A DNA stretch of 64,000 nt from Leeia speluncae (GTDB taxonomy: Bacteria; Pseudomonadota; Gammaproteobacteria; Burkholderiales; Leeiaceae). Numbering within the stretch: position 1 is the first letter of the stretch; the number at the start of each line of letters is the position of its first letter. The notes beneath the pieces were generated by a model. It was not told the DNA's origin. It did no database searches and saw nothing but the letters and a program-made list of their open reading frames with translations. The position numbers and the translations under genes are program-made. This document shows positions 5,194 through 27,549 of the stretch, one piece after another. Where the stretch lies: contig NZ_JAJBZT010000001.1 in the NCBI RefSeq assembly GCF_020564625.1, positions 496,001 through 560,000 of the forward strand. The letters run 5' to 3'.

Positions 5194-6633
5194 ATGACTC
5201 ATTCTTCATTATTTGCCCAAGCAGAAAAACATCTCTTGTTGGCTAATCAAATTGATGAAAAAGCGCTAAACCAGACTTTTTCGCGAATCATGCACCACCA
5301 AGCAGATTATGCGGATCTCTATTTTCAATACTGCCGTACTGAGGGCTGGTCATTAGACGAAGGCATCGTGAAAGGTGGTAGTTTTAATATTGATCAAGGC
5401 GTTGGTGTACGCGTTGTATCAGGGGAAAAAACCGCTTTTGCTTATTCTGATGAAATTAGTTTATCCGCGCTAACTCAAGCCGCTGATGCGACACGTGCTA
5501 TTGCGCCGGTTGGGCAAGGGATTGTTGGTGTGCCATCCACTGTAAATGGCCTTGGACTCTATTTGCCAGATGACCCGATCGCTAGTTTATCTGCTGCAGA
5601 AAAAGTAAAACTACTAGAGCGTCTAGAACAAATGGCTAGGCAGTTAGACCCACGCATTAAACAAGTGATGGCCAGTATGGCCGCTCAGTACGAAGTGGTG
5701 TTTGTAGCGAGGGCAGATGGTGTTCGTGCAGCAGATATTCGTCCACTCGTGAGAGTGAATATTCAAGTCATCGTCGAGCAAAATGGACGTCGTGAGCAAG
5801 GTGGGGCTGGCGGCGGCGGACGATTTGACTTTGCGTACTTTACAGATGATGTATTGCGTAGCTATGCAGAACGCGCAGTAAAAGAAGCACTGACCAACCT
5901 AGATGCACGTCCAGCCCCAGCAGGTCAAATGACCGTTGTACTTGGTCCTGGTTGGCCAGGCGTATTGTTGCATGAAGCAGTTGGACATGGTTTAGAAGGT
6001 GACTTTAATCGTAAAGGAAGCTCTGCATTCTCTGGCAAAATCGGCCAACAAGTTGCCGCAAAAGGGGTAACTGTTGTAGATGATGGCACGATTGCCAATC
6101 GTCGTGGCTCCTTGTCGGTGGATGACGAAGGTACGCCTACCAGCTGTACGACCCTAATTGAAGACGGTATTTTGACTGGCTATATGCAAGACACCATGAA
6201 TGCGCGTCTAATGGGTATGAAGCCGACTGGAAATGGTCGTCGTGAATCGTACGCGCATTTACCAATGCCTCGTATGACGAACACCTATATGTTAAGTGGC
6301 GAGCATCATCCAGAAGAAATTATCGCTTCAGTAAAAGATGGCTTGTATGCAGTTAACTTTGGCGGCGGCCAAGTAGATATTACCAGTGGTAAATTTGTTT
6401 TCTCTGCTTCTGAAGCATGGAAAATTGAGAATGGTAAATTGATGTATCCAGTGAAGGGCGCAACCCTAATCGGAAATGGTCCAGAGGCCATGAGCCAAAT
6501 CACGATGATCGGTAATGATATGCAACTAGATACCGGTGTCGGCGTCTGTGGCAAAGATGGTCAAAGTGTGCCGGTTGGCGTGGGGCAGCCAACTTTGAAG
6601 CTAGAAGGCTTGACCGTGGGTGGAACCGCTTAA
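5194..6633 (+). CDS. tldD: Metalloprotease TldD
   Basis: About 479 residues, close to the 481 of E. coli TldD, and alignable end to end by eye. The zinc-binding motif [11 protein letters not shown] is intact. TldD acts with TldE/PmbA as a heterodimeric protease that degrades unfolded peptides and processes peptide antibiotics such as microcins; pmbA is not in this window. The reading frame extends upstream to a TTG at 5155, but the ATG at 5194 ([11 protein letters not shown]) gives the usual family length, so I use it. The upstream sequence has only a weak AAAGA. A clear intrinsic terminator follows within 30 bases, marking the end of the yhdP-nitrilase-tldD unit. Confidence 0.95.
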
Positions 6634-24515: not shown

Positions 24516-25070
24516 TTATAGACCTTTTACAGCGTAAATTCCTGGGGCGTTGCGCCAATACCCTTTGTAGTCCATGCCATATCCAAATAAGAAGCGATCT
24601 TGTACAGAAAGCCCAACAAAGTCAGCGTGTGCACCATCGGCTTTTCGATTGTGTTGTTTATCAATCAGCACCGCTACTTTTACGCTAGCAGCCCCTGCTG
24701 CTTGGCAGGATTTTACAATTTCAACTAGCGTGTTGCCTTCATCTAAAATATCGTCAATGACCAGAATGTTTCGACCGCTTAGGTCCGCTTTAGGAGGTAC
24801 TTTCCATAATAGTTTTCCACCACTTGTCTCATCTCCATAGCGTGTAGCATGGATATATTCATACTGTAGTGGAAAATTTAAATGGGTAAGTAACTGACCC
24901 GCGATGATCAGTCCACCGTTCATGACACAGAACACTATTGGGTTACTGTCTGCCATGTCTTCGGTAATTTTCTCCCCCATCTTTGCTATGGCTGCGTTGA
25001 TCTCCGCTTGTCCATGCAACAGGTCTGCTTCCGCCATTACTTGGCGTGCTTCATCGATTGAAAATGTCAT
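24516..25070 (-). CDS. hpt: Hypoxanthine-guanine phosphoribosyltransferase
   Basis: A 184-residue type I phosphoribosyltransferase for purine salvage that makes IMP or GMP from base and PRPP. The PRPP-binding motif is clear (ILVIDDILDEGNTL), and FLFGYGMDYKGYWRNAPGIY at the C-terminus is typical of the betaproteobacterial Hpt group rather than the E. coli form. The ribosome binding site before the ATG is weak. It stands alone, 72 bases from the DUF2325 gene on the same strand and followed by the tRNA pair with its own promoter. Confidence 0.93.
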   Translation of the reverse strand: MTFSIDEARQVMAEADLLHGQAEINAAIAKMGEKITEDMADSNPIVFCVMNGGLIIAGQLLTHLNFPLQYEYIHATRYGDETSGGKLLWKVPPKADLSGRNILVIDDILDEGNTLVEIVKSCQAAGAASVKVAVLIDKQHNRKADGAHADFVGLSVQDRFLFGYGMDYKGYWRNAPGIYAVKGL

Positions 25071-25142
25071 GATGGAAATTTCACAGAAAACTTCAATATC
25101 GTATTTTACTGGAAACTCCTACCCCTAATGCAAGGTTGTTTA

Positions 25143-25481
25143 TTAATTTTTCTTACGTGTTTGATTTGGGCACGTATCACATTGATTTTCTTTACACAGT
25201 CCTGCTTGTTGTAAACCTTCAAGGAGTGCACAAGTAGAGCGGCGGCAAGCGAGAATAGGGATCGACTTTTCTTGTGCAAGCATGCGGAAATGTCTCATCA
25301 CATTGTGGCCAACAAAGTCGGTAAATAGAATCAAAATGTCAGTATCTTTTGGTAAGCCTGGTAGCTTGCGCTGGTGAGAAGCGTTTCTCCCTGAAATATG
25401 TTTCAAAATACCTATTCCTTGATTGGCTAGTAAGCCTGGAATGTTTCCTAGTGTATCGGCACCAACTAATATTGCATTCAT
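25143..25481 (-). CDS. DUF2325 protein, probably iron-regulated
   Basis: A 112-residue protein matching the DUF2325 family: N-terminal ILVGADTLGNIPG, then ISGRNASHQRKLPGLP, then LILFTDFVGHNVM and CRRSTCALLEGLQQAG. The fold looks like a small Rossmann-type domain. The C-terminal tail carries a cysteine cluster, CKENQCDTCP, which together with the upstream cysteines could bind metal. No function is established that I know of. Translation signals are strong: AAGGAGG 8 bases before the ATG. The promoter is near consensus and carries a Fur box in its spacer, so expression should rise when iron is scarce. It is divergent from bcp. Confidence 0.88.
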   Translation of the reverse strand: MNAILVGADTLGNIPGLLANQGIGILKHISGRNASHQRKLPGLPKDTDILILFTDFVGHNVMRHFRMLAQEKSIPILACRRSTCALLEGLQQAGLCKENQCDTCPNQTRKKN

Positions 25482-25502
25482 TGAAAATCCTCCTTTTTAT
25501 TT

Positions 25503-25531
25503 ATTAAACGATAATCATTATCATTTGTCAA
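25503..25531 (-). promoter_or_regulatory. Near-consensus sigma-70 promoter of the DUF2325 gene
   Basis: Minus strand: TTGACA (25526-25531), 17-base spacer, TTTAAT (25503-25508). The -35 is perfect and the -10 is 5/6. The start of the gene is 22 bases further on, with a strong ribosome binding site between. Confidence 0.8.
25509..25523. promoter_or_regulatory. Fur box
   Basis: CGATAATCATTATCA matches the 7-1-7 Fur palindrome TGATAATnATTATCA at 13 of the 14 defined positions. It fills the spacer between the -35 and -10 elements of the DUF2325 promoter, so bound Fe-Fur would block RNA polymerase. Confidence 0.8.
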
Positions 25532-25627
25532 TTGATTATCACCAACTTTTCATGCGTTTGTACTTGCGGCTAGATTCAGAATGTACGATGCTTAAGGCAT
25601 GGGAACTGCTTTAAATAAGGTGCAAAA

Positions 25628-26092
25628 ATGATTGATGCAAATTTTGGTGAAATTAAATTGGCTGCGACTGGTGAAAAGTCGATTTCTCTCAATGATTTAA
25701 CAGGCCAATGGATCGTTCTTTATTTTTATCCAAAAGACAATACGCCGGGATGTTCAACAGAAGGAGAGAATTTTCGCGATTTACATCATGAGTTTGAATC
25801 GTTAGGTGCGGTTGTTTTGGGCGTGTCGAGAGATAGCATCAAGTCTCATGAAAACTTCAAGTCAAAAATGACTTTTCCTTTTGATTTATTGTCAGATTCT
25901 GAAGAATTGTTATGTAATGCTTTTACTGTCATCAAAATGAAAAACATGTATGGCAAACAGGTAAGAGGTATTGAGCGTAGTACTTTTATCATTTCTCCAT
26001 CTGGAGAAGTAGAAAAGGAGTGGCGAGGCGTCAAAGTTCCTGGGCATGTAAATGAGGTATTGGAGTTACTAAAAAATCTATCAGTTTCGTGA
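25628..26092 (+). CDS. bcp: Peroxiredoxin of the Bcp/PrxQ type
   Basis: A 154-residue thiol peroxidase that reduces hydrogen peroxide and organic peroxides. The peroxidatic Cys42 sits in the usual setting (YPKDNTPGCSTEG), and the Arg of the active site follows in GIERSTFII. The resolving cysteine that E. coli Bcp has five residues later is absent; Cys96 (ELLCNAF) is the only other one. An AAGG precedes the ATG. The gene is divergent from the Fur-controlled DUF2325 gene and is followed by the PhoH gene 35 bases later, probably in one transcript. Confidence 0.93.
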   Translation: MIDANFGEIKLAATGEKSISLNDLTGQWIVLYFYPKDNTPGCSTEGENFRDLHHEFESLGAVVLGVSRDSIKSHENFKSKMTFPFDLLSDSEELLCNAFTVIKMKNMYGKQVRGIERSTFIISPSGEVEKEWRGVKVPGHVNEVLELLKNLSVS

Positions 26093-26127
26093 CTGGTATT
26101 CAAAATCTCCTCTTGAAAGGTAAGAAT

Positions 26128-27549
26128 ATGGCTACCACAAGGAAGTCCAGCAAGAAAAAAAATGTAGATATTAAGCTGTTCGTTCTTGATACCAATGTCT
26201 TAATGCACGATCCAACCAGTCTTTATCGGTTCGATGAGCATGATATCTTTGTGCCAATGATGACGTTAGAGGAGTTGGATAACAACAAGAAAGGGATGTC
26301 TGAAGTTGCGAGAAATGCACGTCAGGCTAGTCGATTTCTTGATCAGATGGTTGGAAATGTAGAGCACATTCTCACTGAAGGTATTGCACTTTCAGAGCAT
26401 TCTCAAGGCGCGGCTTCAGGTAGGCTCTTTTTGCAAACAGAACCACTGGTTCCTGTTCAATCCATGACGATGTCGATTGGCAAGGCAGATAATTTAATTC
26501 TATCTGTTGTGCTGGCACTCAAGGAAAAGCATCCGACTAGACAAGTGATCCTTGTCTCGAAAGATATCAACATGCGGATTAAGGCTCGTGCAATGGGCCT
26601 TTCTGCTGAAGATTATTTCAATGATAAGGTACTTGAAGATACTGATCTGCTGTACACCGGCATGCGTGAACTCCCTGCTAACTTTTGGGAGACGCATGGT
26701 AAAGATATGTCTAGTTGGAAAGAGGGTAATCGTAGCTTTTATAAACTTAAAGGCCCAATTTGCAAAACATTGGTGGTCAATGAGTTTGTGTACCATCCAA
26801 ATGACGGGGGTGAGTTTGCAGCCATTGTGCGCGAGCAAAGTGGCTCTACTGCTGTCCTAGAAACGCTGACAGATTATTCTCATCAAAAGAATAATATCTG
26901 GGGGATTACAGCGCGAAATCGTGAGCAGAATTTTGCTTTGAATTTGCTCATGGATCCTGAGATTGATTTCATCACTTTACTGGGTCAAGCGGGAACAGGG
27001 AAAACCTTACTCACATTAGCGGCTGGTTTAGCGATGACATTAGAGAAGAAAATTTTCTCTGAAATTATCATGACCCGGGTGACGGTGCCAGTTGGTGAGG
27101 ATATTGGTTTCTTACCAGGTACTGAAGAAGAGAAAATGACCCCTTGGATGGGCGCGTTAGAAGATAACCTCGATGTGCTTAATAAGTCCGATCAAGATGC
27201 GGGTGAGTGGGGGCGTGCAGCTACTAGGGATTTAATTCGTGCAAGGATTAAAGTGAAATCTTTAAACTTTATGCGTGGACGAACATTTCTAAATAAGTTG
27301 GTCATTATCGATGAGGCGCAAAACTTAACTTCAAAACAAATGAAGACACTGATCACCCGTGCTGGTCCTGGCACTAAAGTGGTATGTCTTGGTAATATTG
27401 CTCAGATTGATACCCCGTACTTAACCGAGGGTAGTTCTGGCCTTACCTTTGTGGTGGATCGCTTTAAAGGATGGGCCCATTCTGGTCATATAACCTTGCA
27501 AAGAGGTGAAAGATCTCGTCTTGCGGATTACGCTGCTGAAGCACTGTGA
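26128..27549 (+). CDS. PhoH-family ATPase with N-terminal PIN domain
   Basis: About 473 residues. The N-terminal half has a PIN ribonuclease domain beginning KLFVLDTNVLMHDP (about residues 15-28), with further acids at LEELD and KADN and the late KDINMRIKA block. The C-terminal half is a PhoH-type ATPase with Walker A GQAGTGKT at about residues 285-293 and a VIIDEAQN Walker B. This is the PhoH2-like PIN-PhoH architecture, linked to RNA unwinding and cleavage. The frame is open from a GTG at 26089, but the ATG at 26128 has a good AAAGG and a typical lysine-rich start. A GC-rich hairpin follows the stop. Confidence 0.92.
   Translation: MATTRKSSKKKNVDIKLFVLDTNVLMHDPTSLYRFDEHDIFVPMMTLEELDNNKKGMSEVARNARQASRFLDQMVGNVEHILTEGIALSEHSQGAASGRLFLQTEPLVPVQSMTMSIGKADNLILSVVLALKEKHPTRQVILVSKDINMRIKARAMGLSAEDYFNDKVLEDTDLLYTGMRELPANFWETHGKDMSSWKEGNRSFYKLKGPICKTLVVNEFVYHPNDGGEFAAIVREQSGSTAVLETLTDYSHQKNNIWGITARNREQNFALNLLMDPEIDFITLLGQAGTGKTLLTLAAGLAMTLEKKIFSEIIMTRVTVPVGEDIGFLPGTEEEKMTPWMGALEDNLDVLNKSDQDAGEWGRAATRDLIRARIKVKSLNFMRGRTFLNKLVIIDEAQNLTSKQMKTLITRAGPGTKVVCLGNIAQIDTPYLTEGSSGLTFVVDRFKGWAHSGHITLQRGERSRLADYAAEAL

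Follow-up and report, generated by a model that had tools for sequence, protein, structure and literature searches.

A probable Fur operator at the promoter of a DUF2325 gene in Leeia speluncae and its relatives, and boxless sister copies often found among sulfur-uptake genes

Iron starvation very probably induces the gene for a small DUF2325 protein in Leeia speluncae and its relatives, judging from a Fur box that lies at the promoter of the gene and recurs in front of its counterparts. The box was found in a stretch of 64,000 nucleotides of the Leeia genome, called the window here; its conservation and, in part of the relatives, a neighbourhood of iron genes are direct observations. Repression of the gene by Fur, with de-repression in iron starvation, is predicted with high confidence. 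It is also very likely that the site works as a true Fur operator and that the gene is transcribed when iron is short; the metal or sulfur role proposed for the product is much less certain. Boxless copies of the family often lie among sulfur-uptake genes, and this division between apparently iron-switched copies and sister copies at sulfur loci points to a role where the supplies of iron and sulfur meet.

Promoter, probable operator and regulator

The elements of the locus are collected in Table 1. The earlier note had read a TTGACA-17-TTTAAT promoter on the minus strand with a Fur palindrome in its spacer and a strong ribosome binding site downstream, and all of these are present in the sequence. 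The box overlaps the core promoter, which was read by eye. The description of this promoter as near-consensus is right by count, with 11 of 12 bases matching, but the count masks a weak -10 element: its one mismatch is at position 2, where an A is usually better conserved than any other base of a -10 element. Because a promoter scan required that A, TTGACA-17-TTTAAT is absent from the list of the scan.

Table 1. Features of the DUF2325 locus, with positions in the window
Feature	Position	Strand	Basis
-35 hexamer TTGACA	25531-25526	minus	direct reading, 6/6 consensus bases
-10 hexamer TTTAAT	25508-25503	minus	direct reading, 5/6, without A at position 2
Fur box TGATAATGATTATCG	25523-25509	minus	13/14 against the 7-1-7 consensus, within the 17-base spacer
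Ribosome binding site AGGAGG	25494-25489	minus	direct reading, 7 nt 5' of the ATG at 25481
DUF2325 protein, 112 aa	25481-25143	minus	PF10087, 50.8 bits against a cut-off of 33.6, residues 4-92
Hypoxanthine-guanine phosphoribosyltransferase (hpt)	25070-24516	minus	NF006605, 268.9 bits; 72 nt downstream of the DUF2325 gene
Bcp/PrxQ-type peroxiredoxin (bcp), divergent	25628-26092	plus	PF00578; NF053650, 140.3 bits, under the cut-off of 260

How unusual is such a site? Boxes were scored against TGATAATNATTATCA, which we take to be the Fur 7-1-7 consensus and which has 14 defined positions. The window holds a single site with at most one mismatch, the one before the DUF2325 gene, compared with a mean of 0.01 such sites per window in 100 shuffles; when the 200-nt upstream region was simulated, a score of 13 was attained in 2 of 5,000 cases. 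At up to three mismatches the window has 6 sites against 4.38 expected, a chance-like number. Across the whole genome (3.78 Mb) five sites have at most one mismatch. Apart from the DUF2325 site, one precedes a gene pair for a cupredoxin and an FTR1 iron permease by 30 nt, another precedes a TonB receptor gene by about 280 nt, a third precedes a FimV-like gene by about 79 nt, and the fourth falls within a glycosyltransferase gene; the sites before the permease pair and the TonB receptor gene fit a working Fur regulon. At up to two mismatches there are 32 sites in the genome against 14 for a reversed control pattern.

Which protein reads the operator? A PF01475 profile search found two FUR-family genes in the genome. 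One encodes a strong Fur (E = 2e-45, 155.2 bits) in the gene order dapB-bamE-fur (by eye). The other adjoins znu-type genes for an ABC metal transporter (also by eye), and its product looks like Zur; a third, PerR-like gene was not found by the FUR-family search. FUR-family boxes resemble one another, and with two such proteins in the genome the site might be read by Zur or by a PerR- or Mur-like regulator, the more so as the C. jejuni gene described below is tied to PerR too. Against this stand the Zur-like appearance of the second protein, the fact that the consensus matched is that of Fur, the placement of two of the four other best genome sites before iron-uptake genes, and the recurrence of iron-uptake neighbours in relatives. 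A reader other than Fur is thus very unlikely.

With Fur itself as the preferred regulator, we infer binding to the site and an iron response in Leeia. When iron is plentiful, Fe(II)-Fur would lie across the core promoter and block RNA polymerase; when iron is short, Fur would leave and the DUF2325 gene would be transcribed from TTGACA-17-TTTAAT. The scan listed no terminator-like site on the minus strand between the DUF2325 gene and hpt. Transcription may read through, and hpt may be co-transcribed with the presumed iron-regulated gene. All three Leeia-type genomes compared share the order phoH - bcp / DUF2325 - hpt (window 24516-27549).

C. jejuni already provides a known example of a DUF2325 gene under Fur control, and the Leeia gene would be another. 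The gene cj1384c encodes a DUF2325 protein of 104 aa with seven cysteines and adjoins katA (PMC9426514). It has a Fur motif, its expression goes up when iron is limiting or fur is mutated (PMC4491227, PMC3815106), and it has been linked to PerR and RacRS as well as to Fur (PMC9426514, PMC4491227, PMC3815106). The window gene shares with it the DUF2325 domain, a similar size, richness in cysteine and a Fur motif, a likeness drawn from the published descriptions of Cj1384. The two differ in the PerR and RacRS ties and the katA neighbour of cj1384c, compared with a genome in which no third PerR-like gene was found. In the available passages of PMC9426514, Cj1384 has no assigned function, attempts to purify it failed, and its cysteines are considered possibly suited to redox or metal binding; cj1384c is also among the genes reported as lower in biofilms (PMC12056249). 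The Fur passages on Chromobacterium in PMC9131926 do not mention a gene of the window type. Leeia-type loci provide a non-pathogen setting for the gene class of cj1384c.

Conservation of the box upstream of related genes

The earlier note had proposed a search for Fur sites upstream of DUF2325 genes in relatives. Such sites proved to be conserved, which supports its view of the gene as a candidate for direct induction by iron starvation. In a first set of 60 genomes, including that of Leeia, 16 have a homolog, and 11 of the 15 other homolog genomes have a box of at least 12/14 within 160 nt of the start. For a larger set drawn from named records, the best 80 of 241 candidates were kept; at least 100 nt of upstream sequence was required, and one locus with 43 nt (L044) was dropped. 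Among the remaining 79 of these best 80 of 241, a box of at least 11/14 is found within 120 nt in 66 and within 200 nt in 73, and a box of at least 12/14 within 120 nt in 55. On the same basis of the best 80 of 241, at least one boxed locus occurs under 32 of 34 genus-level labels, which we assigned ourselves from the record titles, several metagenome records counting as one label each. A widespread uncharacterised family is in this way tied to iron limitation through its operator.

The seven loci gained between 120 and 200 nt all belong to Candidatus Nitrotoga and have boxes of 12-14/14 at 123-195 nt. Each of the Nitrotoga loci L093, L100-L103, L108 and L111 also has another box of at least 11, 34 nt apart from the first, and these double boxes suggest that the leader is long or that Fur binds cooperatively. 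Six of the 79 relatives (L074, L094, L096, L113, L118, L120) have no box of at least 11 within 800 nt. The best score at L094 and L096 is 10, and L096, L118 and L120 are second copies without a CxxC tail.

Could such boxes be chance matches in AT-rich intergenic DNA? Windows from the same loci attain 11 in 21 of 5,788 cases, five of which attain 12, and regions upstream of neighbouring ORFs do so in 2 of 472. Because the sequence upstream of the gene is lower in GC (mean 0.42) than the remainder, a GC-matched control was added; with 12 of 492 windows attaining 11/14 it is less empty than the plain control, and together with the chance-like count of sites at three mismatches it is what speaks for chance. 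The simulation and shuffles of the window site speak against it, as do the 32 boxed labels and three boxed relatives from other phyla, and the conservation of the box refutes it; as an explanation, chance is next to impossible.

The relatives from other phyla come from a plasmid collection in which four records hold a DUF2325 relative; three were read, the fourth being a second Arcobacter strain. The box scores 13/14 at 15 nt before the start in Arcobacter, 14/14 at 25 nt in Acetoanaerobium and 12/14 at 42 nt in Anoxybacillus. In Markov simulations of their own upstream regions, these scores were attained in 2, 0 and 11 of 2,000 cases, respectively. On the Arcobacter plasmid (L247, CP134847.1) the boxed gene lies near a heavy-metal P-type ATPase gene and near a gene annotated DUF2202, which has no Pfam match at 1e-5. 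A class search gave a match in 5 of 369 genomes, Leeia included; two copies there from other families have boxes of 13/14, and two others score 9 and 12. Among 31 other loci, five (L127, L128, L141, L147, L148) encode longer DUF2325-domain proteins (about 250-450 aa) and have Fur-like boxes of 11-14/14 near the predicted start, the start codons being uncertain.

What exactly is conserved? The earlier note had placed the box exactly in the promoter spacer, and this is true of the window and of Leeia oryzae (L042), but not of most relatives: a crude best-hexamer scan puts the box (at least 12 of its 15 bases) in the spacer in 4 of 67. In many relatives a TATCAT-like -10 is formed by the box at its 3' end. 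The recurring feature is a box that overlaps the core-promoter region.

The box might also serve the divergent bcp or another neighbour, with the DUF2325 gene as a bystander. The intergenic region is common to both genes, the start of bcp is 104 nt from the box, and in several relatives the gene across the box encodes a ferric-type transporter and would be expected to be under Fur control in its own right. However, in many relatives, in Chromobacteriaceae, Chitinibacteraceae and Leeia, the nearest genes differ and look like housekeeping genes, and 55 of the 66 boxed loci (from the best 80 of 241 candidates) have their box 16-53 nt away from the start of the DUF2325 gene. Among the genes seen, only DUF2325 is common to the box-bearing loci, and bcp is therefore judged unlikely to own the box; the bystander explanation as a whole has very little chance of being right.

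The DUF2325 protein

Up to E = 1, the window protein has no sequence match among solved structures, and no family was found for it in NCBIfam (E 0.01) or PHROGs (E 0.1). A structure model (pLDDT 79, pTM 0.70) has a four-strand Rossmann-like sheet; the tail is modelled poorly (pLDDT about 42-50), and the four cysteines are not resolved. The best VIA-align Z scores are 8.9 and 8.4, with many Rossmann- or receiver-like rows at 7-8, and the best Foldseek E is 7.3e-3. Neither search gave a specific fold match pointing to a chemistry, the matches being Rossmann- or receiver-like and otherwise unspecific. A match to 2-hydroxyisocaproyl-CoA dehydratase (3o3n, Z 7.3) falls within this background and nothing was drawn from it.

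Among 38 diverse members of the family, G7, D9, L18, H28, R32, H59 and A69 are invariant, and G31, D55, R81 and S82 nearly so. In the model, D9, H28, D55, H59 and C79 are placed at the ends of strands or immediately beyond them. This placement suggests one shared pocket, with G7, D9, H28, R32 and H59, and D55 as a nearly invariant member, as its conserved residues. Cysteine conservation was counted in 78 close relatives: position 79 is a cysteine in all 78, position 84 in 62 or position 85 in 14, and C101 and C104 are present in 71 and 72. The last two form a CxxC that is usually CxxCP (65 of 78). The earlier note had quoted the tail CKENQCDTCP as suited to metal or haem handling; of the cysteines quoted, C96 is not conserved (15 of 78). 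Since Cys79 and the tail are absent from other DUF2325 branches, the cysteines cannot be the universal function of the family. For the window type, a chemistry of metals or thiols is suggested by the predicted pocket together with the four cysteines, which are mostly conserved.

Does the protein bind or traffic haem? Its C-terminal CxxCP recalls the CP of haem-regulatory motifs, and a role as a haem-binding or haem-trafficking factor has a parallel in Cj1384, which adjoins katA and a gene for a haem-trafficking protein (PMC9426514). By contrast, the neighbouring TonB receptors in relatives fit siderophore models (best 1e-59) better than haem models (best 3e-41), and many sister copies lie in sulfur, not haem, loci; a haem factor is quite improbable. 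For the preferred iron-starvation reading, we infer each step of protein function from the conserved residues and the model. The product would be small, Rossmann-like and probably cytosolic, with a pocket and cysteines 79, 84/85, 101 and 104. It would bind a metal, an Fe-S cluster or persulfide, and might in this way help to reallocate iron or sulfur under starvation; such handling of metal, Fe-S or persulfide at the iron-sulfur interface is possible, if on the doubtful side.

Iron neighbourhoods and sulfur neighbourhoods

Neighbourhoods of two genes to each side were compared for 32 box-positive and 32 box-negative loci, all hand-picked and not blind: the box-positive picks were made partly after iron genes had been seen at L069, L090 and L098, and 19 of the 32 box-negative loci are of the GGD type described below, some being close relatives of each other. 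The 123 proteins beside the box-positive copies include eight TonB receptors at seven loci, seven SBP_bac_6 solute-binding proteins, taken as the ferric type, four FTR1/EfeU and two ferritin-like proteins, five CysB-type regulators and five NlpC/P60 proteins; iron genes are a minority among the neighbours. Fur-repressed iron-uptake genes (FTR1, TonB receptors, the fbpABC type), which are physical neighbours of DUF2325 in part of the relatives, share with the window gene the type of operator and its place near the promoter. Their products are transport proteins, whereas the window product would be a small Rossmann-like protein.

The 128 proteins beside the box-negative copies include 12 sulfate-binding proteins, nine EAL proteins, seven alginate-export-type porins, five family 2A encapsulin shell proteins and four cysteine desulfurase cargo proteins. 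A sulfate-binding protein gene adjoins the copy in 12 of the 32 box-negative loci, and in nine of the 12 it is on the strand of the copy, 40-78 nt upstream of it; the other 20 have none within two genes. No sulfate-binding protein, family 2A encapsulin or cysteine desulfurase gene was found within two genes of the 32 boxed copies. When the neighbours were clustered, the seven ferric-type binding proteins and eight TonB receptors occurred only beside box-positive copies, and one transporter-permease cluster was mixed (two box-negative, three box-positive). At the box-negative loci L158 and L245 a Cys/Met PLP enzyme is a neighbour; at L156 and L199, among others, no sulfur gene was seen within the neighbourhood.

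A CysB-type LysR gene lies directly upstream of the boxed copy, on the same strand and at 83-257 nt, at L212, L216, L218 and L226. A fifth (L222) is downstream of the boxed DUF2325 gene on the other strand. These five CysB-type genes next to boxed copies bring sulfur close to iron.

How does the box relate to protein type? An order-wide survey of 399 genomes, Leeia included, found a homolog in 80, with 104 matches, of which 101 were scored after two pieces of a broken G027 gene and a G881 fragment had been dropped. A box of at least 11 precedes 51 of 64 GAD-motif copies with a CxxC tail, 6 of 16 GAD-motif copies without C..C in the C-terminal part, and none of 21 GGD-motif copies, none of which has a CxxC tail; the tail test was a loose C..C pattern after residue 86, which short forms such as CGLC pass. 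A strict rule that a Fur box occurs if and only if there is a CxxC tail fails, with exceptions both ways. Six GAD copies without C..C are boxed (L196, L213, L214, L224, L225 and L033, with other cysteines in the tail position in L213 and L214), and 13 of the 64 tailed GAD copies fall below the box threshold, including the second copies L194, L198, L199 and L200. Among the plasmid copies, that of Arcobacter combines a GGD motif with a CxxC tail and a box, and that of Anoxybacillus has a box without a tail.

In a tree of 99 of the 101 rows (one protein being present three times), 80 rows lie on one starred branch, 55 of them boxed, and 19 lie outside it, none boxed. The tree groups match the GAD and GGD motifs except for six rows: the GGD copies L227-L230 are nested in the GAD group, and L236 and L242 lie outside it. 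The box label changes 11 times on the tree compared with 32.7 times for shuffled labels. In this tree, which has few columns, long branches that meet and many unresolved forks, the box label is clustered and does not form one clean clade.

The Leeia genome itself holds one boxed DUF2325 copy and one boxless copy in a sulfur neighbourhood. The second copy (L155, G000:C11:80000-95000, 6191-6481, minus strand) has no tail. Its neighbours are an NlpA-type lipoprotein, a Cys/Met PLP enzyme, the FMN reductase SsuE and a sigma-54 activator, together with an SfnB-like protein that scores under its cut-off. More generally, the copies at sulfate-binding or family 2A encapsulin loci resemble the window protein in belonging to the same Pfam family and in having, in the aligned members, H28, R32, H59, G7 and D9. 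They differ in having no Fur box and, at part of the loci, sulfur-assimilation neighbours.

Tentatively, and with somewhat less than an even chance, DUF2325 can be read as a class of small, widespread starvation proteins with an iron branch and a sulfur branch that share one chemistry at the iron-sulfur interface. The iron branch would have a Fur box at the promoter and usually an added CxxC tail. The sulfur branch would have no Fur box, and some of its loci would be operon-like, with genes for a sulfate-binding protein, an EAL protein and a family 2A encapsulin with its cysteine desulfurase. In both, the D/H/R pocket would handle, for example, persulfide sulfur or the parts of Fe-S clusters under scarcity. 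This raises the question of what a small protein with a pocket does that cells short of iron and cells short of sulfur might both need.

In the passages available from the open literature, neither the conservation of the box across phyla nor the split between iron and sulfur is described. The passages of PMC6637203 and PMC10534721 that name DUF2325 draw no link to iron. DUF2325 has been named as a possible secondary cargo near anammox encapsulins (PMC6934571), a different encapsulin system, and the passage concerned makes no claim about iron boxes. Synechococcus responds to sulfate starvation with more family 2A encapsulin and more of its cysteine desulfurase (PMC8049743).

The window DUF2325 gene has hpt, bcp and phoH as neighbours and no family 2A encapsulin gene beside it. 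At five other loci (L239, L240, L232, L160 and L233), genes for a sulfate-binding protein, DUF2325 and a family 2A encapsulin are clustered, with an extra EAL gene at L239 and L240 or a cysteine desulfurase gene at L160, L232 and L233. At such clusters DUF2325 may be part of the encapsulin sulfur system.
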